Assembly (NCBI GenBank): GCA_018398815.1
Contig: CM031601.1
Coordinates: 30,053,831 to 30,117,830 of the forward strand
Direction: 5' to 3'
DNA length: 64,000 bases
Source of the DNA: Conus ventricosus
Taxonomy: Eukaryota; Mollusca; Gastropoda; Neogastropoda; Conidae
Part shown: one piece after another, positions 10,505 through 64,000 of the stretch
Layout: each line of letters starts with the position of its first letter
Numbering within the stretch: position 1 is the stretch's first letter
Notes under the pieces: model-generated
The model's input: the letters and a program-made list of their open reading frames with translations, nothing else
What the model was told of the DNA's origin: nothing
The model's database searches: none
Position numbers and translations under genes: made by a program

Positions 10505-11785
10505 CAGTCATTCCCTTGACCGCTGGGGGTCATTGGGGGGACGTGATGAGGCAGCTGCCGTTTCTCTCCAGGCTCTTCTGTTGGTGGCTGTCTTGAGGAG
10601 ATCTGGCATGGTCATTTTGGTCCAGTCCTTTATGTTGTCGGACCAGCTCTTTCTCTGCCGTCCTCGTCTGCGCCCTCCTTCAACGGTACCTTGAAGGATG
10701 GTTTTGGAGAGGGTGTTGTGACAAATGACATGGCCAAACCATGCCATCTTCCGTCGTTTGATGGTTGCCAGAAGTGGTTCGTGGGGCCCGACTAGGTTAG
10801 TGACCAGGTTCCGCACATAATCATTGGTCTTGTGTTCTTTGTAGGAGATGCGGAGTAGTTTCCTCAGGCACCTGGTCTCAAACGCCTGTATTCTTCTTTC
10901 TGTTTCGGCCATCAGTGTCCATGTCTCGCAACCATATAGGAGGATCGAGACCACTAGTGACTTGTAGAACCGAATTTGTGTGGAATTTGATGTTGCTCTT
11001 CCACACTCTGTTCAGTCTGGCCATCGCTGCTGATGTGGAGTTGATCCTGATTTGGATTTCTGCTGTGCAGGTGCCATCTTTGGACAGGGTTGCTCCCAAG
11101 TACCTGAAGCTGGTCACTTCTTTCAGGGCTCACCATTCATGGTTATGTTGGCACTGCTTTTAGTCTTGCTGTTGACCATGACCTTTGACTTCTCTGTGCT
11201 GACCTCCATGCCGTAGGCACTTGCTCTTGTGACAAGTCTGTTTGTGAGATCCTGGAGCTCGGGTGTTGCTGCCCCCCATGAGGTCGATATCGTCTGCGAA
11301 ACGAAGGTTGCAGACCGCCCTGCCACCATGCTGATGGAGGTGTGGTGTTCTTCTAGGGTCTCTTGCATGATTCTCTCCAGAAAGATGTTGAAAAGGACTG
11401 GAGATAGTAGGCACCCTTGCCTGACTCTGACTGTAGTCGGGAAGAACTGGCCGTGCTGGCTATTGAGGAGTACTGTGCTGCTTGAGTGTTCGTAGAGGGC
11501 CTGGATGACTTGAACGAGCCTCTCATCAATGTTGAAGTCTCAGAGAACCTGCCATAGGCCGTTGTGCCACACCCGGTCGAATGCCTTCTTAAAGTCAATG
11601 AAATTGTGGAAGAGGTCCTTTTGGTGTTGTAGATGTTTTTCAATCAGGACTCGGCAGTTGAAAATTTGTTCCTCAGTGCTCCGCCCTCTTCTAAAACCTG
11701 CGTGTTCTTCTGATAGCAGTTCCTCAGCCTTGGATTTCAGTCGGTTGAGGATGATGGGAAGCATGACTTTGCTCGATAGATACAC
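10505..11785 (-). pseudogene. 5'-truncated RTE-like non-LTR retrotransposon (reverse transcriptase)
   Basis: Reading right to left, the fragments show reverse-transcriptase motifs in the expected order: EEHAGFRRGRSTEEQIF and FIDFKKAFDRVWH (11540-11815), VRQGCLLSPVLFNI (about 11395-11450), the catalytic FADDIDLMGG (about 11265-11295), FRYLGATLSKDG (about 11080), LLYGCETWTL (about 10920) and a basic tail with RRGRQRKSW (about 10660). Several frameshifts separate them, so it is dead. The endonuclease half is missing. This tail type is typical of the endonuclease/reverse-transcriptase LINEs common in molluscs and flatworms; RTE is my best guess for the clade. Both ends abut GATA-type simple repeat (gatagatatcag at 10497, cgatagatacac at 11773). 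Confidence 0.9.
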
Positions 11786-33859: not shown

Positions 33860-34735
33860 GAGATTTTAGTTAGGTGAAGGTTAGGCCAAGTTCCTCGGGG
33901 TTAGGTTGGAAGGTTAGACTAGGTAGGGGGGGCTGGGGAAGTAGGACATATTTTTGAATTCCAGTCTTCACTTATTGAAGGAGTGGAAGCGGGAGGTTGG
34001 TTTCTTTTCCGACTGTTACCCTTTTGTTACTTTGGTTCTACACCAGAGAAGGCGGGGCAGGATATCGGCTGTTGTTGTGTTGTCAAGTCAGTGAGTTGTA
34101 GTAAATTGTCGTGTTGTTGCACGAGCAACAACTAGTCCGTTGGTCAGGTGTGTCAGCTCTGCGGAGGGATACACTGTTCTGACCAATGGTTGCGTTGTGT
34201 TGTGAGTGGAGTTCGCTTGATTCTGACCAGGGCGGAATGCGTTGGGGTAGCTGCACTTCGGTCCCTGGTGTTCGTTGGAGTGGACGTGCTCCTTGTAAGT
34301 GCGGCGGCAGTGCCGTTCGTTCTGCTGAGTGAGTGACGTCGAGTCCTAGTGAGGCCAGATCCTCGTCGGGTTTGGTGTGCCCTTGGCCTGTGCCGATGTT
34401 CTGTGTCGTCTTCGTTGGCAGCCACTTTCAACTGGTGTGGTTGATCGCCTGTCTGTCCAGGTTGGTGATCTGTTATGTTCGTGGTGTTGTGGTTCGTCGT
34501 GTTGTCTTGCATTATGGTGAGTTGTACTGTGGTTGTCTCATGTTGTGATTAGTTGGTATTGTGTTCGTTGCGTATACTGGTTGTCTGGTATGATTCGTCT
34601 TGGTTTCGTGGTTGAAGTTGTTGTCAGCCGGTTTGTGTTGTCACCTTCTGTATATTTTGTAAGTAGTGTACATAGTGGTTCCTGAGTTCGATTGTCACGG
34701 GGCAGTTTGGCTAGACAACTTGGGTTCGATATAAC
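33860..34735. other. G/T-skewed flank left of LTR element A
   Basis: The plus strand is strongly G+T rich, with many 'gttgtg', 'gttagg' and 'tggttg' words and few C or A runs. The same skew continues to the right of the element (45226-47640), so element A inserted into one longer skewed sequence. It could be an older, unrecognised element or a non-coding transcript region. Confidence 0.5.
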
Positions 34736-35284
34736 TAAAGTGTTTACCCTACACTTTAGAAGGGTGGCTTAGTGTGACATGTCTAACTAGTGCGTTAACT
34801 ATTCCTAGTATTGGGGTTTCTTCTCATGCACACAAACGCATACACACGCACACAGTGCAACTCACCCTGCAGTACTGGAATGGCGAGTGGGTGGTCAGTC
34901 TGTGACGCGCTCTGTCCAAGCTGAGCTTGTAGCTTTCCTCAGAGGGTCAAACAGCTGACGGCGCAACCAGGGAAGGCGAAGGCCACGTCTGGTTCCGCAG
35001 GTATGGTGGTTGGTCTTAGCCGGTGTTGGTCTCCAGACGCCGCACGTCGCTCCCTTAGCTTGAAGAAGAGGACGGGCGTCTGCAATGGTCAGGTGTAGAA
35101 GCTGTCTGGTGACTTGGGTTCTCACTTCGGGAGCTTGCCTCGAGGTGGTCTGCACCACGACGGGGTGACAGCTTCTTCCCGCCCTGTCGTCTGCTGGTGA
35201 GTGAGCACTGCTCATGCGAGGTGCACCTTCCGGTTCCGGTGGTGAACCGAGTGCGTATGCGCACTACACTCGTGCGTCACTACA
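34736..35284 (-). repeat. Element A 3' LTR
   Basis: 549 bases, matching the LTR at 44662-45221 with about eight substitutions plus short indels, including one of about 11 bases near 35158. On the minus strand it starts TGTAGTGACGC and ends AACACTTTA. It lies next to the polypurine tract. Confidence 0.95.
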
Positions 35285-35298
35285 CTCCCCCCGACTTT
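35285..35298 (-). promoter_or_regulatory. Element A polypurine tract
   Basis: On the minus strand AAAGTCGGGGGGAG lies directly before the 3' LTR. This is the expected place for the primer of plus-strand DNA synthesis. Confidence 0.8.
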
Positions 35299-35346
35299 AT
35301 GAAAAAGCTTTAGTGAGTGTAGTTCCCTCGCAAGAGCCCAGGTCCG

Positions 35347-36402
35347 CTAGCATCCGCTTTGCCCTAACAGCTGAAGAGGCGCAGAGCATTGTTGGCAGAC
35401 CGGTCCAAAAGCTCCTCCACAGCATCGACAGCATTGGTGCCACACACTCGGCCACCTGGAAGAGCTGGTTGGGTGCAGACCACTGGCTCTTTGGGGGACG
35501 GAAATATGGAGCTCTGTCTCCAGAAGGATGCGGTCCCGGTCCATCCCACCTAGTGCCTTGTCCTGCTCCGGGTTAAAAGACCTGGCTAACCGGGTGAACC
35601 CAAAGTGGACATTGGGGAAGGCCCCCACCCACGGTCACGGACATTCTCATCCCCCGTGAAACAGTGAATATAAATACGCTGCTCACTGGGTAGGACCATC
35701 CGGACCAGGCACAGCATTTGGAGGTAGGCCTCTGCCCCATCATCCCAGGCATCCCTCGGCAGTGTAGCACAACAACATGGTGGGGAGACCAAGGGCAGAA
35801 TCCCCTGGAGATTTACAGCTTGCTGGGACCAGGTCTCAATTGGCATGCTTTGGTCGTATCCAATCTCGCCCACAGCGGCCACTCGTGGCGATGAGAAAGC
35901 TCCCGCAGCCTAACGAGGACTCTCTCCATATCCCGACCAGCCAGTGTCGCACAATGCTTGGGATGCAGCCCAACCGCCACCACCATATCCTTGGGGTACC
36001 GAACAAGATCCTCGGAGGAGGGGTAGGAGACGGGATCGCAAAAGGAGGCGCAAGTTCCACCAATTGGACCCGTTTTTCCATCCTCACGAAGGTCCCATCC
36101 AGCACAGCCCTCAGACTGGAGTCCCACGGGAGCTGCATTGCTTTGACAGTCCTATCCAGGTGGAAGTGTGCGTCAAATGCCCGCGGAAGCTGAGTTTCGG
36201 GTATCATGGCTGCCTGGGCAGGCTCCAAACCCTCCTCCGGCGACGGATAATGTTCCCTCCAGTACTCGCTCTCCTGGTGGTCCATCCACGCCACCAGTAG
36301 CAGCACCACCCTCCAGTGGACCAACACGGCTGGTGACTCCGCCGGGTACAGCTGGAAGGTAGTCGGCACCGGCTCCCCAATGTACTGACAAAAAGCTGTC
36401 AT
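35347..36402 (-). pseudogene. TatD-family metal-dependent hydrolase carried by element A
   Basis: Minus-strand fragments show the TatD signature blocks in order: DAHFHLDR (36151-36174, the H-x-H metal site), VVAVGLHPK (about 35955-35980), VGEIGYDQ (35850-35873, the metal-binding Glu), HCR near 35765 in a shifted frame, IYIHCFTG (35652-35675), PNVHFGF (about 35600) and DRILLETE (35512-35535). TatD enzymes are TIM-barrel nucleases; members act on DNA or RNA 3' ends. In the last block the usual metal-binding Asp after LLET is Glu here. At least three frameshifts split the copy. It ends about 60 bases from the polypurine tract, so it is inside the element and not host sequence. Its role is unknown: trimming of cDNA or of RNA in hybrids is a guess. 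Confidence 0.85.
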
Positions 36403-36546
36403 AGCCTCCCTCTGCCCATCCTAGATGCGTGCATCTTCCAGGGTGGACAGGAGACCTGCATGTTGAGGAACCGAACCAAGTCCTCCCAGCGACCAGACGA
36501 CATATCAGCCAGTCCATGGCCTGCAATAATGCCTTCCTACGCCACT

Positions 36547-36903
36547 TCAACACGTTTTCTGATGTTGGGGGCAGCTTTTGTCGAAAACCCCAGGGAGGTG
36601 ATGTGTGAAGGCATGCACCTTCAGGTCCCCTACTAGCTCCTCGCAGCTCGGTACCATACACTCTTCCTCCCGGGACTCGACTGGCCGAGTGTGACTGGCT
36701 ACAGGGACGGCCTCCCTCGGCCCGACCGAAGAGGGGGTGAAGGTGGCGCTGGGAATCGCCTTAGGCAGCTTAGCCTGTTTTTTCTTCATCCTCCTCTGGC
36801 CGAAGCCGGTAGTTTCTTCCTGCCTCCTCACTCGCAGTACTCCAGATAGTACGGGAGGTGAATGAAGGTCCACTTTCTGCTGGGCCAGCTTTGGGAACCT
36901 CAC
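36547..36903 (-). CDS. Basic region with a C2H2-like finger, upstream of the TatD part
   Basis: A 118-codon minus-strand frame. The first half is basic (GQRRMKKKQAKLPKA). The second holds CMVPSCEELVGD followed by LKVHAFTHHLPGVFD, giving C-x4-C-x9-H-x3-H, close to a C2H2 zinc finger. It precedes the TatD segment in the direction of transcription and may be the N-terminal, nucleic-acid-binding part of the same protein. The spacing is not classical, so zinc binding is tentative. Confidence 0.5.
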   Translation of the reverse strand: MRFPKLAQQKVDLHSPPVLSGVLRVRRQEETTGFGQRRMKKKQAKLPKAIPSATFTPSSVGPREAVPVASHTRPVESREEECMVPSCEELVGDLKVHAFTHHLPGVFDKSCPQHQKTC

Positions 36904-37240
36904 CTAGAGCCTCTCGACGTGCTGAGGCTGCCCACTTGCGCGACGCTCTAGACTTCCGGAGGCTCCCAGTCCGGAACACCACTTCCTGGGAGGAGGCTGT
37001 ACTTTTGGCCTCAGCTCCCGTGTCAGTCCGTACTGCACCAGGCGGCCACCCCAAAGATGAGGAAGAGCACCCGGCAGTGGATTCTGGTGTTTCCTGGGAA
37101 ACGACCTTCATGGGCGACTCTCGTGGGGAGAGCAACCCAGGAAAATCTTCCCCAGTATCCATCACGCTGAGGATGTCCGAATGCTCATACCTCACACTCT
37201 GGGCAGGCTCATCCTCGCAGAGGGCCGCTCGATATGGCAT
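36770..37240 (-). CDS. Low-complexity frame in the cargo region of element A
   Basis: 157 codons rich in Ser, Glu, Gly, Ala and Pro (for example SVMDTGEDFPGLLSPRES and a RKSRASRKWAASARR patch). It has no recognisable domain and is probably a disordered linker between the PHD-bearing and TatD-bearing parts. It is in frame with the 37271-37609 segment across one stop. Confidence 0.4.
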   Translation of the reverse strand: MPYRAALCEDEPAQSVRYEHSDILSVMDTGEDFPGLLSPRESPMKVVSQETPESTAGCSSSSLGWPPGAVRTDTGAEAKSTASSQEVVFRTGSLRKSRASRKWAASARREALGEVPKAGPAESGPSFTSRTIWSTASEEAGRNYRLRPEEDEEKTG

Positions 37241-37270
37241 TCCAAATTGGGGTCGGTCAGCAAGCGTATG

Positions 37271-37609
37271 TCAAGGCGGCCCCCCATAAATTGCTCGGAG
37301 GCTGGTTTGGACTTGCCGGGCATCCAGACCGCGAAGTGACAGGTGCCACATTTTCTGTGATCCACCTATCATTCCGCAACTGGTAAGTCTGCATCGCCCG
37401 GCAACCTTCTTCAGCCATTTCTTTGAGAAAGGGTCACCCCGCTGCTTGGCGACAGCGACCATCCGGAGCAAGCATGCTTCACGCTCGTCCTCGGATGCCT
37501 CTTTGGTAAGCCAGAGGTCCTGCACCAACTGGTCTGTGTGCGGGAACAGCCGACCTGTGCTGAAAACCCGATCAGCGCGCTCCAGGGCGTTTAATTTTCC
37601 GGTGGCCAT
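37271..37609 (-). CDS. Unknown frame downstream of the PHD-like module
   Basis: 112 codons starting MATGKLNALERADRVF and continuing through DQLVQDLWLTKEASEDEREA and DPFSKKWLKKVAGRC. It is predicted helical. I do not recognise it. Its ATG overlaps the end of the last PHD-containing frame (WPPEN then TAA, about 37588-37609), which would suit re-initiation or simply reflect a frameshift. Confidence 0.45.
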   Translation of the reverse strand: MATGKLNALERADRVFSTGRLFPHTDQLVQDLWLTKEASEDEREACLLRMVAVAKQRGDPFSKKWLKKVAGRCRLTSCGMIGGSQKMWHLSLRGLDARQVQTSLRAIYGGPP

Positions 37610-37844
37610 CCTGAACAGAACCTCTGTCTAATAAGTTCACTGCCTGCAAGCCTGCACTTGTACTTGTCAATATCAAGTGCGTCAGTGGCGGTGACGTTAA
37701 CACATGATCCACGGTTCCACTCCTAGCGAAGTCGCATTGGATCATGAAACGCCCACCCCACTGCTTCCTGCAGAAGCAGTAAACTCCCTGATCCTCATCC
37801 TCCAGGACTTCTTCTTCTGGATGTGACTTGAACCCTGGATCCAT
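37588..37844 (-). pseudogene. PHD-finger-like module downstream of integrase in element A
   Basis: The first half reads VYCFCRKQWGGRFMIQCD, the start of a C4HC3 PHD finger (Y-C-x-C-R plus 'rFMIqCD'). The second half, in a shifted frame, reads CVNVTATDALDIDKYKC, which matches the end of the finger (H-x-x-C-V then D-x-Y-x-C). The damaged stretch of about 30 bases between them, at 37704-37735, is where the third Cys pair and His would be. An acidic stretch (EEEVLEDED) precedes it. PHD fingers read histone H3 tails, so the module could guide integration in the way chromodomains do in chromoviruses. That role is an inference. Confidence 0.7.
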
Positions 37845-37890
37845 GCAGGCAGTTTTCTGTCCCTGCGCGGCATCAGTCAGTCATGGTTTG

Positions 37891-38977
37891 TCATGAAGAC
37901 TGAGTTCCGAAGTTTGACCTGACACAGGTAGGCAGACAGCTTTCTCCAGATGACCCCCGGACCTTTCCAGGTGAACAGAGTTTCCTGCATTTACCCTTCA
38001 CAACTGCAGTATCCAAGAGATATACGACATCACCTTCGGCATATGGTCTCAACAAGATCTTGAGATCATAACTTCTTTTCATGCGTCGAAGGGATGTCTT
38101 CAGATTCTCTCTTGCAGCTGTGTGGGCATCCTGCAAGGACTGGACCAAGTGGAACACGTACTCATCCTCACACTCGAACCTCTGGCCTGGAACTGGAACA
38201 TCAGCTGAGCTGGTATGATACACTTCCCTCCCCAACATCAACATGTTAGGGGTAAAGCCAGTGGTTCGGTTTACAGAGGACCGGATAGCTCCAGCTATCT
38301 GCTGTACGTGTTCGTCCCACTTGTTCTGCACTTTCCCCAGGAAGCACCTTATGGCATCCATCAACGTTCGGTTGTACCGCTCCACCTGACCATTCGACGC
38401 AGGACCATATGGCGTTGTTGGGCCTTGTGAATCTTGAAGCATGGCACAATGCCTCGAACAACTTGCTTTCAAAATTGCGTCCCTGGTCTGAGAACAGCTG
38501 GAATGGGCAACCGAAACGTGAAAAGAACCCATCCACCGCAGCTTTTGCTGTTGTCTCGCCTTCCAAGATGGAAGAGGCATGCACTCCACCCATTTGGTGA
38601 ATTGGTCCACCATCATGAGGCAGTGCTCATTTCCATGTGTTGTCCTGGGCAGAGGGCCAATGAAATCAATATGGACACGTTCCATCGGGGCCCTGCGTGG
38701 TATTCAGTCAATGGGACTTTCCCATAACGTTTGTTCTTTTTGTTCTTGCTACAAACGTTGCAGGACACACATAGGCCTCGACATCGCGAGCTAAAGCAAA
38801 CCAAAAGAATTTCTCCTTCAGTCTGGCTTTAGTCCTCGCCACGCCTTGGTGTGCTGCTGATGGAAGTTTATGGTGCCACTGTATTGCTTGTTCCTGGAGG
38901 GAAGCGAGGACTACCAGTTCCAAGTCCTTGGTGTCTAGCGTGCGCCTGAATAGCAAGCCTTCCTTAAGCAGGAACAA
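37891..38977 (-). pseudogene. Element A integrase
   Basis: The zinc-binding part is at 38708-38977 (WHHKLPSAAHQGVARTKARL with a following Cys pair). The catalytic core shows the first Asp in VHIDFIGPLP (about 38667), the second in FQLFSDQGRNFESKLF (about 38488, shifted frame) and the Glu in SNGQVERYNRTL (about 38380). A C-terminal part with YAEGDVVYLLD follows, ending near 37891. All three catalytic residues are present but lie in different frames. The enzyme would insert the cDNA into host DNA. Confidence 0.88.
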
Positions 38978-39420
38978 CCCTCTGTTCAGCCAATGGTATT
39001 TTGCACTTGATGAAGCTGAGAAGAGTTCCCCTTCATCGGGTTCAGTCCCTTTCTGAAGGTATTGGAGGAGCAGGTGTAGATCCTTATCTTTCCCCTGTGC
39101 TGTCCGGAGTTCCTGAACTGTAAACCCCCAGCACGAGGGGATTTCTGAGGTAGCCTCTTGTGCAAACGCACATACAGGTCCTCAGCTGCACTGTCCATCG
39201 ATCTCTATCAAGCTTACGCCATCAGTGTGCAGCTAAAGTCTTCAGACCGCAAGACTTCCTGCACTGCCTTTTCAGGCAGTGAGGTACTCTGGCTGTCCCG
39301 AGGACAGTGACTTATGTACTCGTGCTGGTCAACCGCTCGTTGTAACCTGAGAACCTGGTGTTTCCACCCAGTGAACCAACGATTGGCCGCCAGACGAAGT
39401 ACTTCGGCGCTCAGGATGTG

Positions 39421-39600
39421 TCGGAAAACTGGCAGGTGCAACCTTCGAGTGTGCCAGAAAACTGTCAGGCCCCTTTCGGGCCAGAAAACTGTCAGGTTCA
39501 CCCTGCGGGTGAACCAGAGAACTGGCAGGCACACTCTGCACCAGAAAACTGGCAGGGATGTCCGACATCCCAGAGAAACTGGCAGACAAAGAGCCCGAAC
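39421..39600 (-). repeat. Hairpin array in the RNase H-integrase linker
   Basis: The linker CCAGAAAACTG(G/T)CAGG occurs six times (the ACT falls at 39428, 39461, 39488, 39521, 39548 and 39578). Between the linkers lie different sequences, several of them perfect short palindromes: ggttcaccc/gggtgaacc, gggatgt/acatccc and ggccc/gggcc. Spacings are 33, 27, 33, 27 and 30 bases, all multiples of three, so a reading frame through the array is preserved; one minus frame gives repeated LPVFW/LTVFW. A related tandem duplication with 'ctcgagagagacccccc' follows at 39825-40000. Confidence 0.85.
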
Positions 39601-39753
39601 GCCCTTCAGGTGCACCCCCCGTTTGCACCCGGACACTGGCATGTGCTCCCCCGGTTGGGACCGCACGAAATTGGGCAACTGTCATGCTTGTTGGCGCATG
39701 GGCAAGCAAGACTTTCGAATGTGCAAGGAATTTTGCCCACTGTCATGCGCATT

Positions 39754-40287
39754 TCATCCTTCAGAAGTAGGCACACGGCCATCATGACTGGCAAACCCAT
39801 GGACCTCCCTGGGGAGAAAGACACGCCATGATGGCTGGCAAACCCCATGGCACCTTCGTGACTCTCGAGAGAGACCCCCCAGAGAACTACTGTGGTCCAT
39901 CACTCTGAGAAAGTACACGGCCATGGGGCCAAACCCCATGGCACCCCTTCCATGACTCCTCGAGAGAGACCCCCCCAGAGAAGCTACTGTAGGTCCATCC
40001 GGCTGGGGCCCCTTATCCTCGGGAGCCAAAACTGTCAGGCTTCCTTCCGTCAGGCCCCGGGCTTCGTCCACAGCCTGAATGAACTCCCCCCACTGTTCGT
40101 CGGCTCTCTTGCAGTATTTGCAACCCCCACAAGGCAGACTTTCAGGCCGAATGCCAGCCACGAAAGATGGACATGGAGTCAAAGCGTCAGGAATTCTGGA
40201 CAACGCATCGGCGTTCTGATGCTTTGCCCCGGCCCGATGTTTAATAACCATATGGAACTGTGAAAGTTCCTCCATCCATCGGGCCAA
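39754..40287 (-). CDS. Element A RNase H end and CxxC linker
   Basis: Starts ARWMEELSQFHMVIKHRAG followed by NADALSRIPD, the standard end of Ty3 RNase H. It continues into a linker with PCGGCKYCKRADEQW, a compact C-x2-C-x2-C cluster that might bind metal. After that the frame enters the minisatellite-like duplicated segment and stops at 39754. Confidence 0.75.
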   Translation of the reverse strand: MARWMEELSQFHMVIKHRAGAKHQNADALSRIPDALTPCPSFVAGIRPESLPCGGCKYCKRADEQWGEFIQAVDEARGLTEGSLTVLAPEDKGPQPDGPTVASLGGSLSRSHGRGAMGFGPMAVYFLRVMDHSSSLGGLSRESRRCHGVCQPSWRVFLPREVHGFASHDGRVPTSEG

Positions 40288-40289
40288 CT

Positions 40290-41408
40290 GTCCCTGTGGG
40301 TGTTCAAACCGCAGGAGCCATGTAAGACTTGAGTGGTCGGTCCTGACGTAAAAAGTCCTACCTAATAGGTAGTACTTAACTTAAACCTCACGATACTCAA
40401 CAGTTCTTTCCGGGTTGTGCAGTACCTTCTCTGTTCAGGAGTGAGGGCGAAACTGCCGTATGCAATCACCCGCTACACACCTCCTTGAATCTGACTCAGA
40501 ACCGCCCCGATTGCCAAATCATTAGCACCGTATCCAATACAAATGGATCCGTGCTGTTTGGCAATGTCAGGACGGGGGGTTCAGTCAACACTCGACAGAG
40601 GGTATCAAAGGAATACTGCTTTTCCTCATCCCAGAAGAACTTGTTTTTTCCTGTGAGGCTATACAAAGGCTGCGCCAATGCTGCAAAGTCTGGAACGAAC
40701 ATGCGATGGTATTAGCGAAGCCAAGAAACCGCTCCACATCTTTTGAAGATTTTGGAATGGGCCAGTCCCTCACAGTCTGAATATCCCGGTCAGACATAGC
40801 AATTTGGTTTTTGCTAACCATCCGCCCCAGGAACTCAACTTTGGGCTGGAAGAAAAGGCACTTCTTTGGCTTGAGCTTAAGACCATGCTGTCGAAACCTT
40901 TGCAACGCCCCCTCAAGTTCTGCAAATGATCTTCAAAGCTGTCCCCTAACACCAAAATGTCGTCCAGGAAAGCGAGAACGGTCTTCCATGTCAGACCTCT
41001 CAGGATAAGGTTCACCACGGTGAGAATGTGGCTGGCGCATTGGTGAGCCCAAATCCCATCCGAACATGTTCGAACAGACCGTACTTGGTCAAGAAGGCAG
41101 TTTTCTTTCTGTCAGCCTCTTTGACTCTCACTTGCCAGTACGCATTATGGCATCTAGCTTTGAAAACCATGTGCTCCCCGACAAAGTATCAGACAGTCTT
41201 CAACCAATGGCAATGGGAAAGTATCCTTGACTGTGACATCATTTAGGGCTCGGTAATCGATGCACCAGTGGACTGATTCGTCTTTCTTTCGGATGAGTAC
41301 TGGCGCTGACGCCCACTCAGATGTTGACTCCTGAATGACACCAGCCTTCAACATTTTGCTGTAAATGTGCCTCCTCCTCTCCTGCGAATACTGCAGGGTA
41401 CGGCGCAT
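40290..41408 (-). pseudogene. Element A reverse transcriptase and RNase H start
   Basis: The fragments in order: GVIQESTSEWASAPVLIRKK and CIDYRALNDVTVKDTFPLP (41154-41408), the catalytic FLDDIL (40959-40976), then LKPKKCLFFQPKVEFLG, RDWPIPKSSKDVERFLGF, and FAALAQPLYSLTGK, followed by the RNase H start DPFVLDT-DLAIGAVL near 40510-40560. This is a Ty3-type RT thumb and connection order. F-L-D-D replaces the usual Y/F-x-D-D with both Asp kept. Several frame breaks occur. It copies element RNA into DNA. Confidence 0.93.
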
Positions 41409-41862
41409 TCTTTGCTTTATGGGCTTGGCATCACCAGTGTCAATTGAGTGCTCGATACCGGTGAAGTTCCCTAAATCAATTCATCTGCAGCAAACACATC
41501 CTGATAATCACATAGGAGCTTGGTCAACTCCACCCTTTTGATTCTTTGTCAGGTGTGTGCTGGAGTCACTAGCCAACTTCTGCAGATGCTCCGGTACTTG
41601 GTCCTTCGGAGGTAGCTTAACCCCCATACGTACCATTCTGCAGCTTGCTTCCCCCCTTACCATTTGTTTACAGCTTCTACTTTCAGAGGAAGAGTTCTGC
41701 TGTACCCGGGTCCATAATCTCCTGCACTTCATATGCAGTGGCTAACAGCTCCCCCTTCCGGATGGTATGGTACTTGTCACTGGGGTTTACCAGGCAGAGG
41801 ATTGGATCGTCCCCGGACTTCCGCACCGTCCTCGGTATTAAGAGCTAGAGCCCATCGAAGAC

Positions 41863-42563
41863 TCAGTGTAGTAGTCCTGAAGACTGTATCCAATCTGCGG
41901 TTATCCTCATGACAGTGTTGGGTGGTACCACAACTTTACAGGCAGCTGTAACCCTGGCTATGGTTGGCGGTCCCTGACCAAAACTCATGTCTAAAGGGAT
42001 AATTTCGTCCCCTATCAACAGAGTTTCAGTGCTCATGTCATGAATCGCCCCCAATGATGCAGAAGATCATGCCATAACAGCATCTCGTCAGCAATCGGAG
42101 CCACATACAGCCCCTCTCTGAAGGTTGACTGGCCAATCTTCAGAGGTACAGGTGAGGTGACAAAACCCTTCAGGGTGGAACCCTGGTCCGCCATTTGCAT
42201 CACCACTTCCTTTAGCTTTCTTGGTTTTTTAGAAAGTCTATCGTACACAGAAGTGGCAACAATGGTGATTTCTGCCCCAGAATCCACCCTGGCCTTAACC
42301 GGAATGTCACCTACCATGATGTGTACCCCGGAAGAGCCTGGACAAAACCGATTGACTCGTATGATTTCAGGCTGTCGGCTGATTGCTTCCGATGAACCCT
42401 TTCTCTGACTTTCCACAGTGGTATTTGGACCAGGGGCAGTTTTGTCTGCTAGAGAACCCTGCGGACCACCAGAAATGCCAGGTGCTATCTTGGCCTGCTT
42501 AGGCCTTTGGCAGCCGAATCTTGGAAGTCCGTTGATTCGGCTGGGCAGGGTAAGGGATGACAC
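41863..42563 (-). pseudogene. Element A aspartic protease
   Basis: VKARVDSGAEITIVATSVYD holds the active-site triad as D-S-G (about 42275-42295). Flap and LLGHDLL-like features follow (MLLWHDLLHHWG near 42050, with a frame break). The next segment has GDEIIPLDMSFGQG. D-S-G instead of D-T-G is common in Ty3-like proteases. It would process gag and pol. Confidence 0.85.
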
Positions 42564-42739
42564 GCCCTTGGAGTGGTGACCCTCCGGCCAACACTTTCTA
42601 GGGGTTCCAACTTCGAAAAATTCTGGCCTTTGTGTATTTCCGGCTCAGAGGATCGGCCACCATCCCCAAGCCTTAGGCGTTTAAAGACCCTTTTTTGGCC
42701 TTACTGTCTGTATTCCCTCTGTTGCCCTCCTTTGCAGCC

Positions 42740-43493
42740 AATTTCGATAACGCTGGCAGTCCTTTTTCAGGTGGCCCTTCTGCTGACAGAAGAAGCATTT
42801 TACCCGGGAGTCCTGGGTGGCTGTAGCTTTTGGGTTCAGGGAAGAAGTGGTTTCCTTAGTTTTTTATTTTGAGAGCTGCAGAGTAAGCTCTCTATGGCCT
42901 TCTGCAGACCCTCGAACTCTTCCCTGGTGACAGGTGAAACTGTCCCTACCTGTCCTACCCGAGGATCTTCCAGGTACTTGCGCCTCCTGTCACCCACTGC
43001 TTGTGAGATTTGCTGGAACTGTTTAACTTTATTCACAGCCACCTCAATGGATTCGGGTTCCTCCAAACAGACATGTTTTCCTGCCTCCTTATCCAAACTC
43101 CCTAGGCAGAACTTGTTGATGGCTTCGTCTCGGACATGCTTCTCAGGCAGGGTATGGTATGCTGACGTTGCTAGCGTAAGCACCCTATCAGCAAATCGTC
43201 CAAAGATTCCCCTGCGTTCTGGTGGGCCTGTTGGAAACGCATCCTGGCAGTCCCCACGTACTCTTTGGCCCCAAATCGAGCCGCAAGCTTCCCCATCAAC
43301 TGATGGTAAGAAAACTCACTGCCCAACTGGGTGAGCGTTGTGAAGAAATCCAGGGCCTTCCTTCTAGGCACCAACCTAAGTAGTCCCTACTCTCCAGTTC
43401 CGACCAGTGGAGGACTACCCGGTAGCTGTCAAACTTTTGCTGGAACGACTGCCAATTAGTCCATCCATCGAACTGGAGGTTCTTTGGCAGCAT
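42740..43493 (-). pseudogene. Element A gag: capsid and CCHC zinc knuckle
   Basis: Capsid-like segments: MLPKNLQFDGWTNWQSFQQK at 43493, then ALDFFTTLTQLGSEFSYHQL, RMRFQQAHQNAGESLDDL and HVRDEAINKFCLGSLD, an order typical of Ty3 gag. The nucleocapsid knuckle KCFFCQQKGHLKKDC (C-x2-C-x4-H-x4-C) lies at 42756-42800. Frameshifts occur near 43370 and 43180. It packages the element RNA. Confidence 0.88.
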
Positions 43494-43819
43494 CGGGGGT
43501 CTCCCCTTGGTTCAGAGAGAGGGGCTACCGCAGGGACCTGTACACTACCACAGATAAGAGAGGCGTATATGCCCCAACCTGAACTTTATCTTGGGGATAG
43601 GGAGATAGTACTGACTGTCGCCTGCCTGGACGGCATGCCCATAAGTTTGACTCGGAGGGGGGAATGTCTTACCTGGGTCACCTCCCGCCGCCGCCGCTGT
43701 TCATGCCCATCGCCACTCCGCTCGTGATCCCACCAGCCCTGGTCGTCCTGGTCAAATCTCCAGCCTCTTACACCTCTCTCTGCCGGTGACCTAGATCCAA
43801 CCGGACTGGAAGGACCCCG

Positions 43820-44497
43820 TCAGGATTCAGAGACCCGATCACTCCCACAGCATTCACGATATCGGCTATCCGGCAATGCCTTTTCGAGGTACAATTGCCC
43901 GGAACCTCTCGTGTGTGTTTGCCGTGGGCGTAACAGAGGCTCGTACGATCCCTTATCTCCGTGGCTACGGGAAACAGACGACGACCCAGAGGTGGACCGT
44001 TGGCAAGTACTTCTACCTCCATCCTCCGGTCCATGAACAGAAGTGTGTCTCTCCACCCAATTTTCCGTTCGCAGCTCTTCTGACTCACGGACGGAAAAGC
44101 TCTGATTCAACGTATCGCGAGTCAGACGGGGTCGGGACAAGGCTGTGGACACTTTACAGGGTATTCTGGAATGACTGGGCTGGCTTGGGGCGACTGGTCT
44201 TCCGGTTTCACTCTTTAATGTGGCTGCACCAGTCGCCACCGATCCTTCAGTAGTACCCCCCTGGTCCCCAAAGTTAATCAGAGAGAGAAGGTAAGGGCTT
44301 ACTTCTCCGTGCAGCACAGACGTCAAAATTGGTAAAGTGAGTCCTCCCTCCCTTTTTCTAATCCTGACCAACTGGGCAGCCCTCTTAGGCCCTATCCTGG
44401 CAGCATCTAGCTGCGACGCAGTGGCTAAATTGATATTCAGAGCCATTAGGGGAGTGACTGTATTTCCGGGATTTTTTCTAGTGTAGGTTCTACCCAC
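43820..44497 (-). CDS. Element A gag N-terminus with helix-hairpin-helix motif
   Basis: 226 codons. Residues about 18-60 read MALNINLATASQLDAARIG and PKRAAQLVRIRKREGGL, close to the ComEA-type helix-hairpin-helix 'iNiNtAt..eLd.lpgIG..kA..Iv.yRe', a DNA-binding fold. The Met at residue 18 is a plausible start, just ahead of the motif. The rest is Ser/Arg-rich. It is the first frame after the primer site, so it is the start of gag. The upstream leader is about 150 bases. The frame breaks into another near 43820, ahead of capsid. Confidence 0.75.
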   Translation of the reverse strand: MGRTYTRKNPGNTVTPLMALNINLATASQLDAARIGPKRAAQLVRIRKREGGLTLPILTSVLHGEVSPYLLSLINFGDQGGTTEGSVATGAATLKSETGRPVAPSQPSHSRIPCKVSTALSRPRLTRDTLNQSFSVRESEELRTENWVERHTSVHGPEDGGRSTCQRSTSGSSSVSRSHGDKGSYEPLLRPRQTHTRGSGQLYLEKALPDSRYRECCGSDRVSES

Positions 44498-44642
44498 TCC
44501 CTTCCAATGCTAACTGCAAGGGTTGACAGTATATGACTGTATGCTATTATCTGTGTTCAAATAGTGCTTGGTGCTGAGCAGCAACACAATTCCAATAACT
44601 AGGACTAACACTGTGAATGCATGCACAAACTAAACTACGGTA

Positions 44643-44660
44643 ATCCCACTTCTGACACCA
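44643..44660 (-). promoter_or_regulatory. Element A primer-binding site, tRNA-Leu type
   Basis: On the minus strand TGGTGTCAGAAGTGGGAT lies one base after the 5' LTR. This is the complement of the 3' end of eukaryotic tRNA-Leu (…CCCACTTCTGACACCA). Confidence 0.85.
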
Positions 44661-44661
44661 T

Positions 44662-45221
44662 TAAAGTGTTTACTCTACACTTTAGAAGGGTGGCTTAGTG
44701 TGACATGTCTAACTAGTGCGTTAACTATTCCTAGTATTGGGGTTTCTTCTCATGCACACAAACGCATACACACGCACACAGTGCAACTCACCATGCAGTA
44801 CTGGAATGGCGAGTGGGTGGTCAGTCTGTGACGCGCTCTGTCCAAGCCGAGCTTGCAGCTTTCCTCAGAGGGTCAAACGGCTGACGGCGCAACCAGGGAA
44901 GGCGAAGGCCACGTCTGGTTCCGCAGGTATGGTGGTTGGTCTTAGCCGGTGTTGGTCTCCGGACGCCGCACGTCGCTCCCTTAGCTTGAAGAAGAGGACG
45001 GGCGTCCGCAATGGTCAGGTGTAGAAGCTGTCTGGTGACTTGGGTTCTCACTTCGGAAGCTTGCCTCGAGGTGGTCTGCACTCGACGGGGGTGACGAGTA
45101 GAGTGACAGCTTCTTCCCGCCCTGTCGTCTGCTGGTGAGTGAGCACTGCTCATGCGAGGTGCACCTTCCGGTTCGGTGGTGAACCGAGTGCGTATGCGCA
45201 CTACACTCGTGCGTCACTACA
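44662..45221 (-). repeat. Element A 5' LTR
   Basis: 560 bases, partner of 34736-35284. The flanking TAAC (45222-45225) repeats 34732-34735. It should hold the promoter, but I see no clear TATA box to mark. Confidence 0.95.
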
Positions 45222-45225
45222 TAAC

Positions 45226-49787: not shown

Positions 49788-50791
49788 TGTCACACTGTCA
49801 CTTTTGCACACACGCATTCATGACAGCATTTACTCCATACACACACGCAATCTTTCCAATCAACCAAAAGGCGCACTACCGAATGTTTTTTCTTCTCCCC
49901 TCTCCTTCGGGGAAAACAGTGTACTAAATCACATCAAACAATTTATAAACAGATTTTATACATGTATCTCTCTTTCCTTTTCTCCGAGAGAGAAACTAAT
50001 TCACTCAAGGTTCTATAAAGTCATGGCCTTCACATCACATTAGCCCAAGATCCAGACCAGGAGAATAAATAATTCTTGCAATCATGATGCCATGCCTGCA
50101 TCAGATATATGACTCGCCCCTATCTGTCATGATTCCCTGTCTCTCACAGAAATCGTGTCGCCCTCTTGAATTCTCCCGTCACTGGAGATATGATGAGTTC
50201 CGACTCCTCTCCCTGGAGTCTTTTTTGCTGGGGCTGAACTACCGGTGTGTTCCCCACACCATGGCCATCTTTAACCACCTCACGGGGTGAAGAGTGAAAG
50301 GTGAAGGGTGAAGGGCTGAAATACGAATAAGGTTCGTGTAAGTAACCTGCTTCCCAGGTCAACATATTCTTTCTTTCTCTTTTCTTTAGGTTTTCCCCTG
50401 TAGCTTTCCCCAACTATCTATGGCTCACCTGGTAATGACTGGTCAGCAGTGAGGACCAGCGTCCTGACAGGTTTGAGTCTCTAGGCCATCTGCTGGGCTA
50501 AAACTGATTCTTTCCTCCCTCCTCCAAGTGAGTGCATACTCAGTGTTCAAAACACATGACCAGCACCTTACCAGCCCTTATTAAAATATCTCTCAGTCGT
50601 CACTTTCACCCAATGACCACTGTTGTTTAATCAATGAGTAAATCTCACAATTATTTGGGGACGCCCGCTACGCTAGTCAAGCCACATGAATATTCTTCCT
50701 TTTTAGTTGTGGCATGGGGAAATGATTCATATCACTAAACTACATGTGATGGAGCGTCACATGCCTTGATGTGAGGCTACGTCACATGACA
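49788..50791 (-). repeat. Element B 3' LTR
   Basis: 1004 bases, matching 57367-58360 apart from scattered changes and a roughly 15-base insertion near 49830. The termini are TG...CA. A purine-rich tract on the minus strand (ccccaggatgggggg, 50792-50806) adjoins it as the polypurine tract. Confidence 0.95.
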
Positions 50792-50806
50792 CCCCCCATC
50801 CTGGGG

Positions 50807-51233: not shown

Positions 51234-51830
51234 CAGAGCTTACTCTAGAGTGCGGGATTTGTACAATCCCCCGAAAATCTGTTCCTTCCCGCAATTATCG
51301 AGTCTTAACACGGGCAGACTCCCGCACAGTTGCAGGACTGCCTGCCCTGTTCACTGATCATTGCGGGCGCTCATTTGTCGTCTGCTTGAAAAACTGAAAC
51401 TAGAACTGAGCAGGAGCGAACGATTTCTTGATATTTCATTGGCTGTTAGTGTAAATCAACCAATCGGCAGCGTTGATCTCCTCCTTCTTGATCACCGACG
51501 AGAAGTTGCGAGAGTTTAAGACGCCATATTGGGTATTTTCCAAAATGAAGCGTGCACCCACCCTGTGTGACTTCGACTTTCGTGGAAGAAAAGTGAAAAA
51601 AAAAGATTCTGTGTCATGCGAGGGTTGAGAAGATCATGAAAGAAACCGCGACTACATCCAAAAGCTTGGAGAAGCAGCCCGAAAAGAGTGCCAGTGCAAG
51701 GGAACACCGGTTTCAAGACGATTGGCTTAAGAAGTGGCCTGGGGGGGGGGGGGGGGGGGAGTCCCCCCCCCCCCTTCTTTTTTTATGAGGGCGGATTGCC
51801 CCCTTTTTGAAAATCCTAGGTTAAGCTCTG
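51234..51830 (+). mobile_element. Nested hAT-like element, copy 1
   Basis: Starts CAGAGCTTACTCTAG and ends CTAGGTTAAGCTCTG, short inverted ends. ATAGTT directly flanks both sides (51228-51233, 51831-51836). The left 480 bases also occur at 63663-64000, so it is a repeat family. An ATG at 51545 opens MKRAPTLCDFDFRGRK, and a later frame has DDWLKKW, reminiscent of the N-terminus of ZBED/KIAA1586-type hAT proteins. That is tentative. Poly-G and poly-C runs at 51741-51774 mark a deletion junction. Confidence 0.65.
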
Positions 51831-51836
51831 ATAGTT

Positions 51837-52430
51837 TAAACAGTTTTTCCCCCACATGTAATGTTATAGTCCATTGAAAAGTGAAACATATTTTCCATTG
51901 TTGACAATGAACTAATGAAAACAATAGGTTTGTCTCACTGCACAATCAAAACATGTGTATATACATTTCTAAAGAGTTATTTGCTCATCACACATACATA
52001 TATATTCATCTTCACAAGCAAGTTAGACATAAATAGTACATGATGATTTTTTCATTGTTTACCAAAGAATAAAGCAAAGAATAAATGTGTAATACATCAA
52101 CATCAAGTAGTTTTTTTCTTGTAAAACATATAGTCACTTCAACAAGCAAATTAAGCATAAATACCACTTGATTTAAATAGTAGCATACAATGCACTGTCA
52201 AATGTGAGCACATCGAAATCATAAAAAAAGACAAAAAAAAAGGAATAGTCTTTTCCCTTGAAGACAGTTACATTTGCCCATGAATATTTCTACACGGGGA
52301 CAATAAATCTGCCATGACAATTTTGTTTTCCCAGGCACTGGTTCCAATGGTAAATTGAATTTCTGCAGTGCAAAGCCACCTTAATAATCTGCTGTTTTTT
52401 TAGTCTTTGTTTGATTGCAAGAACGTCAAT
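51837..52430. other. Element B interior, AT-rich, no coding signal
   Basis: This is where integrase is expected. I see only stops and A/T-rich sequence. Confidence 0.5.
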
Positions 52431-52486
52431 GGCCTGTGGTCAGTCTGTAACCGAAACTTTCTTCCAGTCAAGAACCTGGCGAATTC

Positions 52487-53305
52487 TCACATGCCCATAA
52501 AATTTCCCAAGCACTCTCTCTCAATAGTGGAGTATTTCTCCTGTGTCTTTGAGAATTTTTTACTGGCGTATTGCACGGGATGTAACAAAGCACTTTTTTC
52601 CTGCAAAAGTACCGCTCCCATTCCTTTAGAACTGGCATCGGTTCTCAAAATAAAGTCTTCTGAGAGGGAGGGTAACAAAGAACAGGAAATGAGTTGAGGG
52701 TGTTCTGAACATTTCCAAAGCCTCTGGCACTCATCAGACCACACAGTACTTTTGTTCTTCGTCCCTTTCATCAGTTCAGTCAAAGGGGCCGTCAGGGACA
52801 CAAAGTGGGGTACATATCGTCTTAAGTAAGACAATAATCCGATGAGTGACCTGATCGGTTTCTTTGTAGTGGGTTTGTGTAAGGATAAAATTTTTCCACT
52901 TTCTTTCTTCTGGCATCATTTTTCCCACTAAAATAGTGTTGGACCCAAAAACTCGAGAGTTTGAAAACCCGGCACAAATTTTGGATGGTCTCACAGTCGG
53001 ACCAAAATTTCTGAGTCTGGAAAAAACTTTCTGTAAGTTAGAAAGGAGGTCACTCCATGACTTTGCAGCCAAAAAATGTCGTAAAAAAAACTGACTGCAC
53101 CACATTCATGGAGTTTCAGGGTCGCATCATTTGGCCAAAAGAAGCTGGGGCATTTTGCAAACGAATGGCATTTTCGTCCATTGGAAAAAGACCAAAAGGT
53201 GTTTGAAATGCGGGTCTTTTCCTTGTCAGCTTCAGCCATTGGAATCTGCCAGTATCCTTTAGTCAAGTCTACTTTCACAAAATAATTTCCTTCTGAGAGC
53301 TGCAC
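52487..53305 (-). pseudogene. Element B reverse transcriptase and RNase H remnants
   Basis: YFVKVDLTKGYWQIPM (first catalytic Asp, about 53265-53290), then degenerate sequence where the YxDD box should be. Further along come SYLRRYVPHFVSLTAPLTEL (52834) and the RNase H block DFILRTDASSKGMGAVLLQ followed by VQYASKKFSKTQEKYSTIE. This is the Ty3 order. The YxDD region reads FFYDIFW in the best frame, so the enzyme is dead. Confidence 0.9.
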
Positions 53306-53547
53306 AGAAGTTCTTCACTGTCTGGGATGGGCTCGTCATTGAAAAACAGTGATCTTGTTTAATTTCCTGTAATCAATGCAGACCGCACCGAGCCATCAGG
53401 TTTGTCCCAATACAACTGGTGAGCTGTACGGAGTGTAGAAGGTTCTATGCCCTTTAAATCCGCATTACTTTGATTTCTCTCTCGACAACTCTTTTTTTGC
53501 AAAAGGGAAAGGGGGGGTACGGTCTGGTTCGCATAGTATTTCAGTAG

Positions 53548-57366: not shown

Positions 57367-58360
57367 TGTCACACTGTCATTTTGCACACACGCATTCATG
57401 ACAGCATTTACGCAATCTTTCCAATCAACCAAAAGGCGCAAATACCGAAAGTTTTTCTTCTCCCCTCTCCTTGGGGAAAAACAGTGTACTAAAACACATC
57501 AAAAAAATTTTTAAACAGATTTTTTTACATGTATCTCTCTTTTCCTTTTCTCCGAGGGGAGAAACTAATTCATTCAAGGTTCTATAAAGTCATGGCCTTC
57601 ACATCACATTAGCCCAAGATCCGACCAGGGAATAAATAATTCTTGCAATCATTGATGGGCCCTGCCTGCATCAGTTTTTTGACTGCCCCCATACTGTCAT
57701 GATTCCCTGTCTCTCACAGAAATCGTGTCGCCCTCTTGAATTCTCCCGTCACTGGAGATATGATGAGTTCCGACTCCTCTCCTTGGAGTCTTTATTTGCT
57801 GGGGCTGAACTACCGGTGTGTTCCCACACCATGGCCATCTTTAACCACCTCACGGGGTGAAGAGTGAAAGGTGAAGGGTGAAGGGCTGAAACACGAATAA
57901 GGTTCGTGTAAGTAACCTGCTTCCCAGGTCAGCATATTCTTTCTTTCTCTTTTCTTTAGGTTTTCCCTGTAGTTTCCCCAGCTATCTATGGCTCACCTGG
58001 TAATGACTGGTCAGCAGTGAGGACCAGCGTCCTGACAGGTTCGAGTCTCTAGGCCATCTGCTGGGCTAAAACTGATTCTTTCCTCCCTCCTCCAAGTGAG
58101 TGCATACTCAGTGTTCAAAACACATGACCCGAGCACCTTACCAGCCCTTATTAAACTATCTCTCAGTGGTCACTTTCATCCAATGACCACTGTTGTTTAA
58201 TCAATGCGTAAATCTCACAATTTTTGGGGACGCCTGCTACGCTAGTCAAGCCACATGAATATTCTTCCTTTTTAGTTGTGGCATGGGGAAATGATTCATA
58301 TCACTAAACTACATGTGATGGAGCGTCACATGCCTTGATGTGAGGCTACGTCACATGACA
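57367..58360 (-). repeat. Element B 5' LTR
   Basis: 994 bases, TG...CA ends, partner of 49788-50791, followed by the CACAG duplication. Confidence 0.95.
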
Positions 58361-58371
58361 CACAGCCTTCC

Positions 58372-58684: not shown

Positions 58685-59116
58685 TATTACCAAAAGGCTT
58701 TAGATGGAATGTTTTAGATATATGTGTTTCATATATATGTGTGAGTTTGTCAGAGGGGCTTGTAATTGAATGGTTAAAACCTGTGCCTGTAAAGTTGACA
58801 GTTGTGAGTTTGAACCCCTGTTGGGGTGGGATTTTTGCAGTGTGAAAATCATTTTCTTCACCCAGCAGTAAATGGGTACCTGTTTCAAGTCAGCAAAGGT
58901 TTTAGGCAGCAGACGAAGAGGGATGGGCTTTGCCTTCTAACATACCAGGCCCCAGACACTGTGAACCTCTGACAGTTCACTGACCCTATAACCATTAGGC
59001 TGTGGTTTAACATTTTAGCCTTTACATAACAGTGTTAGTGATTAGTTTGTTAAAATGCATTAAATACAGATTCTGAATTCATGTCTTGATCCTGCTCTTC
59101 CCTTTTTTCCATACAG
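58372..59116 (+). other. Intron ahead of the second host exon, with SINE-like pieces
   Basis: On the plus strand 58749-58990 has 'aatggttaaaac' (A-box-like) and 'gagtttgaacccc' (B-box-like), 55 bases apart, in the arrangement of a tRNA-derived SINE, followed by a conserved-looking body 'aaatgggtacctg'. On the minus strand 58490-58600 has a second B-box-like 'ggtttgagtccta'. (GT)n lies at 58645-58682. Confidence 0.55.
58749..58990 (+). repeat. tRNA-derived SINE candidate
   Basis: The head resembles a tRNA, with A-box-like and B-box-like words and the 'gttggggtg' acceptor-side end. The body is about 170 bases. I did not see a second copy in the window. Confidence 0.5.
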
Positions 59117-59315
59117 AACACCCATACCAGTTGGTTGTGGTGTGCACAGCAGAAAACGAGTTCAATTCTGGCCTGACAGCATCTTTGGAAAGGTACATCC
59201 GACCCGCTCCTGTGACTGCGGCAGACCCAGACACCATGGCCAGTTACTTCCGCAGCAAGTTCACAGTATCCGATGACCTTGAGCCTTTGTCGGCTGCACG
59301 TGTAGAGCCAGACAG
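59117..59315 (+). CDS. Internal exon of an unrecognised host gene
   Basis: A strong acceptor (ccttttttccatacag) and a GTCAGG donor bound 199 bases that stay open. It reads HPYQLVVVCTAENEFNSGL, then TASLERYIRPAPVTAADPDT and MASYFRSKFTVSDDLEPLSA. Composition and codon use look like conserved protein. Phases are 1 in and 2 out, so it is not frame-neutral and skipping it would disrupt the protein. I do not recognise the family. The other exons must lie outside the window or beyond the DIRS insertion in the next intron. Confidence 0.75.
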
Positions 59316-59395
59316 GTCAGGGGTTTGTTTTTTCATGATCCATGCTCTGTTTTCATTGCTGCCTGTGTCTGTTCTGCTTCTTTATGTACTGTCTA

Positions 59396-60600
59396 GGAGA
59401 TGGCCTCCCTGGCCAGACAGGAGGACATTCACCTCCTGGTGTACCTGGACGACTGGCTTGTCCTGGCGCCCTCCACGCCCAATGCCTATCCCACACCAGC
59501 CACCTCCTCAGCCTGTGTTCCACGCTGGGGTTTGTCACCAACCCCAGCAAATGCGAACTCAACCCCAGTCATTGCCTCTCCTTTCTGGGTATGAGTTTCA
59601 ACACTATCTCCATGATAATCTCCCCGACCCCAGAGAGGACCTCATCTCCTGCCTTCGCCAATCCACCCACACCTCGGCCAGAACCCTGACCTCCCTCCTG
59701 GGTATGATGGAGACCCTCTCGTCCCTCATTCCCCTAGGTCGGGTCCCCAAGCACCAACTCCAGAGGGAGTTCCGTCGGCGTTGGTCCCAGACCTCCGACC
59801 AATGGGACCAGACCATTCCCCTCAGACCTTGGTTCCTGTAGGCCACGGAGGAGTGGCTCAACCCGCTACTCTCACCCGGGGGTTCCCATCTCCCTCCCAT
59901 CCCAGTCCCTCCAACTCTTCACCGACGCCTCCAACTCGGGCTGGGGCGCCCACTTGGAGAACAGTCACGCCTCAGGAGTGTGGGACGCACAGACTGCACG
60001 CCTCCACGTCAGCGTCTTGGAATTGGAAGTGGTCAGACTGGCCCTCCTCCGCTTTCAGTCCCAAGTCGAGCACCGATGTGTTCTCCTCCTCACAGACAAC
60101 ACGTCGGTAGCTTGCTATATCAACAGGGGGGGTGGGGGGGGGGGGGGGGGACTCACTCCATCAGCCTCTCCCTCCGGACAGAGGCTCTCCTGCGTTGGTG
60201 TCTGGCACATAGATTCACGCTCTGAGCAAGACACATAGTGGGCACACGCAATGTCCTGGCAGACTCCCTCAGCCGGTCCAAATCTCTCATACACACAGAA
60301 TGGACGCTCAATATGCTAACCCTAGCGTTGGTATGGGAACATTGGTTCAGGCCGATGGTCGACCTTTTTGCCACCTGGTTCAGTCATCGTCTGCCAGTCT
60401 ATGACTCTCCCGTGCCGATCCCAGGCACATGCAGTCGATGCCCTGTCCCTGCCCTGGTCGGGTTTCATAGCCTACACCTTTCCCCCCTTCCCGATCCTCC
60501 ACAAAGTGATCAGGAAGGCGAGACTGGAGAGACCCAGGCTGATCCTGATAACCCATGGTGGCCGACCCAGTCCTGGTTTCCGGACCTAAAAGCCCTCTCC
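59396..60600 (+). pseudogene. DIRS reverse transcriptase and RNase H
   Basis: HLLVYLDDWLVLAPS (YLDD at 59442-59453) is the DIRS form of the RT active site. LGFVTNPSKCELNPSHCLSF and FLGMSFNTISM follow in a shifted frame. RNase H starts FTDASNSGWGAHLEN (Asp at 59924) with LLLTDNTSVACYIN near 60100, then a 17-base G-run shifts the frame. GTRNVLADSLSRS and MVDLFATWFSHRLPVYDSP at 60240-60420 are the standard DIRS continuation. Frames change at least four times. Confidence 0.88.
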
Positions 60601-61021
60601 CATGTTCCCCCTCTGCAGTTAACTCCCAGGGTGGGACATGCTCAGGCAACCCCGCTCCGGACGCCCTCACTCCAACCCCCAGATGCTCTGCCTCCACGCC
60701 TGGCTGCTGTATCCACCGGGGTGCGAGCATCTGCCCTGGTGCCCCACTAGGACAGAGCCCGGTCCGTCCTAGACGTTCTCGCGGGGGCAGGGGCCTCGCA
60801 GGACCTGCGAGATTTAGCCTCGGCCTCGTGCAGAGCCAGCATGGAGCCCCTCTATGATTACCCTGGGAGAGATGGGTCACCTGATGCTCTGACAACTCTA
60901 ATATCCAGATAGGCAACTTCTTATCTCACTTTAGCCTTGGCACGTAGGCTATCTGCTAGCTCCATCCAGGGCTACAGATCAGCCATCTGCACCACTATCT
61001 GCCAACTAGGCGGACCATCTT

Positions 61022-63662: not shown

Positions 63663-64000
63663 CAGAGCTTAATCTAGAGCGCGGGATTGGTACAATCCCC
63701 GAAAATCTGTTCCTTTCCGCAGTTATCGAGTCTTAACGCAGGCAGACTCCCGCACATTTGCAGGACTGCCCGCCCTGTTCAATGATCGTTGCGGGCGCTC
63801 GTTTGTCAACTGCTTGAAAAACTGAAACTAGGACTGAGCAGGAGCGAAAAATTTCTTGATATTTCATTTGCTGTTTGTGTAAATCAACCAATCGGCGGCG
63901 TTCATCTCCTCCATCTCGATCACCGACGAGAAGTTGCAAGAGTTTGAGGTGCCATATTGGATATTTTCCAAAATGAAGTGTGCACCCACTCTATTCGACT
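63663..64000 (+). mobile_element. hAT-like element, copy 2 (cut by the window end)
   Basis: It starts CAGAGCTTAATCTAGAG and follows the left part of the nested element at 51234 throughout, including the small start frame (atgaagtgtgcaccc). It runs off the window, so a longer coding part may lie beyond 64000. Confidence 0.75.

Follow-up and report, generated by a model that had tools for sequence, protein, structure and literature searches.

The 64,000-nucleotide stretch of Conus ventricosus DNA analysed here (the window; assembly GCA_018398815.1, contig CM031601.1, positions 30,053,831 to 30,117,830 of the forward strand, numbered below from its first letter) contains, on the minus strand at 34736-45221, a Ty3/gypsy long terminal repeat (LTR) retrotransposon, element A, that carries a TatD-family hydrolase domain between its integrase and its 3' LTR. 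LTR alignment defines a 3' LTR of 549 bp (34736-35284, TGTAGTGACG...AAACACTTTA) and a 5' LTR of 560 bp (44662-45221), and the target-site duplication GTTA can be read directly on both flanks, at 34732-34735 on the 3' side and 45222-45225 on the 5' side. BLAST aligns the two LTRs with 538 identities over 562 columns, including 15 gap columns and 9 substitutions in 547 aligned bases, and a global alignment counts 16 substitutions in 548 aligned bases with 13 gap columns; with so few substitutions on either count, the insertion is fairly young. The polypurine tract AAAGTCGGGGGGAG (35285-35298) adjoins the 3' LTR and is near-identical in L034 and nine other family copies compared, and a putative primer-binding site, TGGTGTCAGAAGTGGGAT (44643-44660), is assigned from its position and leading TGG.

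Between these signals, all on the minus strand, lie a region of no confident family that is probably gag by its position (42836-44509), an aspartic protease (42036-42386) and an integrase with H2C2 zinc-binding domain and core (37895-39166), both recognized by sequence searches, and, between protease and integrase, the reverse transcriptase (RT) with RNase H (39810-41667). In the window as in its relatives, the order protease-RT-RNase H-integrase is that of Ty3/gypsy elements; by pairwise comparison, the best RT matches among 18 PDB sequences were chain 4ol8 (E=3.6e-74), which we take to be Ty3 RT, and Ty3 Gag-Pol 7q5b (9.6e-74). The C-terminal end of pol/integrase is formed by a PHD finger with integrase tail (37651-37894), and the space between it and the 3' LTR holds a separate reading frame, ORF2, broken in the window copy, which consists of an N-terminal region (ORF2N, 36649-37627, delimited by tblastn) without known domain in Pfam and PDB searches, a helical region with most of a Cys/His finger (36178-36645, delimited by tblastn) and, as its C-terminal part next to the 3' LTR, the TatD domain (35363-36177). 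In this copy, the RT, integrase, PHD finger and ORF2 are scattered across different frames.

The original prediction had reported six TatD signatures in order on the minus strand, between the integrase and the polypurine tract, and these are indeed present, distributed over three frames; of the stretch that it assigned to the hydrolase, 35347-36402, the part at 35363-36177 is TatD, whereas 36178-36402 belongs to the preceding helical region. The window fragments by themselves give no TatD match in Pfam; with the TatD domain of an open relative as tblastn query, 35363-36177 is matched in three frames with E values of 9.6e-42, 4.5e-43 and 1.9e-52, so that the likeness is not due to chance. The ORF2 of another copy in the same genome, L002, is open for 760 amino acids and matches PF01026 with E=2.4e-33 (116 bits against a cut-off of 27), on which ground chance motif matches were rejected; the cut-offs of the TIGR00010 YchF/TatD subfamily (85.5 against 206 bits) and of the QatD defence nuclease (46.7 against 230 bits) are not reached. 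Among the matches listed, five span residues 1-274 without stops, four at 88-100% identity and a fifth (C3931) at 50%. At the six metal-ligand positions, HxH, E, H, H and D, a residue other than the major one occurs in 1 of the 176 cells readable across 30 copies, as against 340 of 8006 cells for the whole domain.

The arrangement recurs throughout the 3.52 Gb genome, where a PF01026 search returned 87 matches and at least 93 TatD loci, mostly one place per locus, were compiled from the matches listed; DNA-level matches to element A occur in 26 of the 30 TatD loci taken, two of which overlap. Irrespective of TatD, 69 integrase loci were gathered by a search in which the best 98 of 15030 first-look candidates were scored and which samples the nearest relatives. 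In 59 of these, a TatD match follows downstream on the same strand, at a spacing of 1430-2146 bp in 55 loci and 2342-4734 bp in the other four. Fetched copies repeat the order integrase-PHD-ORF2N-finger/helix-TatD-LTR, and the gap from TatD to LTR is 78-84 bp in 17 of them, the window included, in which the 3' LTR match is full or near-full. Ten integrase loci have no listed TatD match; of the five examined, L054 and L057 carry a degraded TatD, the L058/L059 locus stops inside ORF2N, and the pieces taken of L055 (with L060) and L056 hold no element sequence. No LTR-flanked copy lacking TatD was met among the copies examined, no LTR-based search having been made. The claim that the hydrolase travels with the element is borne out by this fixed place and order, by the narrow LTR gap and by the purifying selection described below; TatD is not confined to the one copy, and the same proportion of integrase loci led to the rejection of a single-copy accident, a single nested insertion and a neighbouring host gene as the source of the domain. 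Of the at least 93 TatD loci, 59 follow an element integrase, and eight further fetched ones adjoin LTR or pol sequence of the element. Many of the genome's TatD-like sequences are thus part of a mobile element and not of the host, and the suggestion that their annotation as host genes is wrong fits the genome examined here.

Selection on the TatD domain was assessed in 30 copies (29 loci and the window), duplicate stretches, L039, L043, L045, L046, the host gene L044 and unfetched copies being excluded; 29 copies were used for the finger/helix region, 27 for ORF2N and, as a yardstick with fewer copies, 13 for integrase and 11 for RT-RNase H. Variants present in two or more copies were counted as shared and all others as private. 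Shared TatD variants (48 non-synonymous, 51 synonymous) give an omega of about 0.35 (p=1.7e-07) and private ones (129 and 77) one of 0.62, both below neutral; without L037 and L031, the shared-variant value is 0.40 (p=0.00016). Eight pairwise comparisons yield TatD dN/dS values of 0.24-0.35, with 0.31 for L032 against L031, whose TatD domains are open. Across copies, the domain is accordingly under purifying selection. For shared variants, omega is as low as 0.14 in the finger/helix region, where ORF2 is most strongly conserved, compared with 0.37 in ORF2N; integrase has 0.14 and RT-RNase H 0.12.

A short form of the element, L034:5549-7976, consists only of LTRs, helical region and TatD; its finger is gone and its TatD frame is open. 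Its LTRs differ at 2 of 573 bases and are flanked on both sides by GCTT, which indicates that it was recently inserted in this form. By eye, its deletion junction falls within a short shared sequence, as expected from template switching, and L052:1-5853 is another internally shortened copy, with the 5' LTR close upstream of the integrase and TatD retained. A divergent relative, L039, keeps the order RT-integrase-PHD-finger/helix-TatD at identities of about 59-69% in the main RT pieces, 49% in integrase, 51% in the PHD finger, 33-40% in finger/helix and 34% in TatD. Judged by L039, the cargo was already present when the two families separated, barring an exchange between them.

The PHD finger and the Cys/His-finger/helical region are parts of the element that the original prediction did not include. 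In the pol frame of L032, Pfam finds a PHD finger (PF00628, 4.2e-08) and no chromodomain, and the nearest PDB chains are those of PHF8 (5e-14), CFP1 and PHF2, whose PHD fingers read histone H3 trimethylated at lysine 4 (H3K4me3); besides the window, the finger is found at L032:4764-5027 and, in divergent form, at L039:4810-5055. In L002, the ORF2 finger reads by eye as C-x4-C-x9-H-x4-H, its first Cys lying within the ORF2N piece in the window. A PDB search with ORF2 upstream of the TatD domain gave no match; in the scanned ORF2 proteins, TatD is the sole Pfam family above cut-off, with no envelope family among them and Med13_C appearing below cut-off only.

As to the origin of the domain, the genome contains a split, intron-bearing gene spread over several exons, L044, which we take to be a TATDN2-like host gene. 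Along a single stretch of 74 residues, L044 matches the element TatD with 46.6 bits, whereas three bacterial TatDs reach 26-30 bits. An IMG/VR scan found no relative, and a GTDB scan one weak archaeal match at 24% identity. No TatD-bearing LTR element was reported in the literature searched, which mostly did not extend to subscription papers, and the accessible parts of PMC6962438, PMC3286476, PMC12754012, PMC5408686, PMC8062694 and PMC11376575 contain none.

Taken together, these observations make us highly confident that, at the level of the family, the element carries the domain as cargo maintained by selection, with its active site conserved. For the explanation as a whole, set out next, we consider the balance of evidence moderately favourable; both judgements draw mainly on the window element's own family. 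Under this explanation, a Ty3/gypsy lineage would have acquired the gene for a TatD hydrolase, which may have been a host gene of TATDN2 type, and would have kept it at the C-terminal end of a 3' frame of its own; the protein, probably made from its own mRNA, would be a metal-dependent nuclease. The targets of this nuclease in the nucleus may be RNA:DNA hybrids or RNA ends that arise as reverse transcription and integration proceed or afterwards, and the integrase PHD finger may steer insertion to H3K4-methylated chromatin, where RNA:DNA hybrids are common. The predicted hybrid or RNA-end step is tentative, drawing as it does on the weak likeness to TATDN2 together with a review (accessible part of PMC12754012) according to which TATDN2 breaks down the RNA strand in R-loops. 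More speculative still, and in our view rather unlikely, is a combined scheme in which an H3K4-methyl-reading integrase and a TATDN2-type nuclease work together, with insertion at R-loop-rich active promoters and hybrids cleared there or on the cDNA; the expanded TATDN2-like genes of marine invertebrates, which the original prediction described as TatD-like, would in that case largely be copies of this lineage.

Several observations weigh against this explanation. The link to TATDN2 is one short stretch, judged against an outgroup of bacterial proteins rather than TATDN1 or TATDN3; the L044 piece is equally near to bacterial YcfH (48.1 bits) and to the element (46.6), and the best whole-domain PDB match is also YcfH (43.7 bits), with human TATDN3 at 29.5. 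Constraint on TatD is weaker than on RT or integrase (omega 0.35 versus 0.12-0.14), and the contrast between shared and private variants has p=0.025 in all copies, 0.074 once L037 is removed and 0.3 once L031 is removed as well. The copies tested were moreover found by their TatD matches, which biases them towards well-kept domains. Among divergent relatives, L039 is the sole source of the conserved order: L046 has finger/helix and TatD at 39% and 30% identity, and its fetched stretch holds no RT, integrase or PHD match, while L043 and L045 carry related TatDs (54% and 34-41% identity) in stretches of which 5000 bases each are masked, the only LTR match of L043 being partial and about 500 bp away.

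The main rival supposes that ORF2 is a counter-defence protein, whose hydrolase would act in trans to destroy small RNAs of the host, or other nucleic acids used in silencing or sensing, with no role in replication. The weaker constraint on TatD than on pol would suit it, as would the greater divergence between families of the accessory 3' frame than of RT (in L039, 34% for TatD versus 59-69%), a behaviour seen in arms-race proteins; whole-domain comparisons, with omega at 0.24-0.62, nevertheless reveal no domain-wide positive selection, and we regard this alternative as possible but not probable. Appreciably less likely is that the TatD fold aids priming or primer removal by working on the primer tRNA, charged or uncharged, either as deacylase or as end-trimmer: a TatD-family deacylase exists and the primer site is of tRNA type by position, but nothing in the data ties the domain to tRNA. 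That TatD might be a passenger, a host retrocopy captured once and carried without function, would be in keeping with the partial or broken state of most listed TatD matches, the window's included, and with the weak shared-versus-private contrast once divergent copies are left out; it is made very improbable by the shared-variant omega of 0.35-0.40, the preserved ligand residues and the recurrence of this cargo in L039, where its identity is 34%. Finally, the spread of the window copy over three frames might suggest motifs matched by chance or one nested insertion, a reading that the PF01026 match in the open copy and the 59 of 69 integrase loci refute and to which we attach practically no weight.

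If a captured, selected TatD nuclease is indeed what the family carries, LTR retrotransposons can carry a working repair-type nuclease, and a step of their life cycle becomes open to direct test. Counts of TatD or TATDN2-like genes in invertebrate genomes may include mobile elements. The legend to the Hox cluster figure of the giant squid paper, PMC6962438, names TATDN2 alongside POGK and ZMYM1 as non-Hox genes of the cluster; this TATDN2 could be an element of the same kind.

Elsewhere in the window, a second pair of repeats (50000-50792 and 57569-58361, 96% identical) encloses a Ty3-like RT on the minus strand (52373-53425, 28% identical to that of element A), and together they probably form another LTR element, in whose region a search with the TatD of element A found no match at E 1e-5. 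A direct repeat at 51269-51568 and 63697-63996, 90% identical, reaches the window end. Frames at 59077-61615, with RNase H and recombinase-like stretches, presumably represent a DIRS-type element, and reverse-transcriptase-like frames at 10508-11539 on the minus strand what we take to be a long interspersed nuclear element (LINE).

In comparison with known systems, element A shares with Ty3/gypsy elements (Metaviridae) the LTRs, primer site, polypurine tract, protease-RT-RNase H-integrase order and nearest solved RTs, and differs from them by its integrase-end PHD finger and its 3' frame with a TatD hydrolase; neither feature was found in any Metaviridae in the literature searched and, to our knowledge, none has been described. 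In errantiviruses and other env-bearing Ty3/gypsy elements, env has a frame of its own downstream of pol and ahead of the 3' LTR, the position that ORF2 also occupies, but ORF2 contains TatD and, by Pfam, no envelope family. Chromoviruses carry a chromodomain at the integrase C-terminus, so that both have a chromatin-reader type of module at this site, which in element A is a PHD finger instead. CR1-type LINEs, too, are retroelements with a PHD finger and an enzyme, in their case an esterase, but they are non-LTR elements and the enzyme is unrelated. With TATDN2 and other TatD nucleases, element A has in common the PF01026 domain and its six metal-ligand residues, whereas its own TatD has no introns in the stretch and is deeply diverged, joined to a Cys/His finger and helical region and lodged inside an LTR element.
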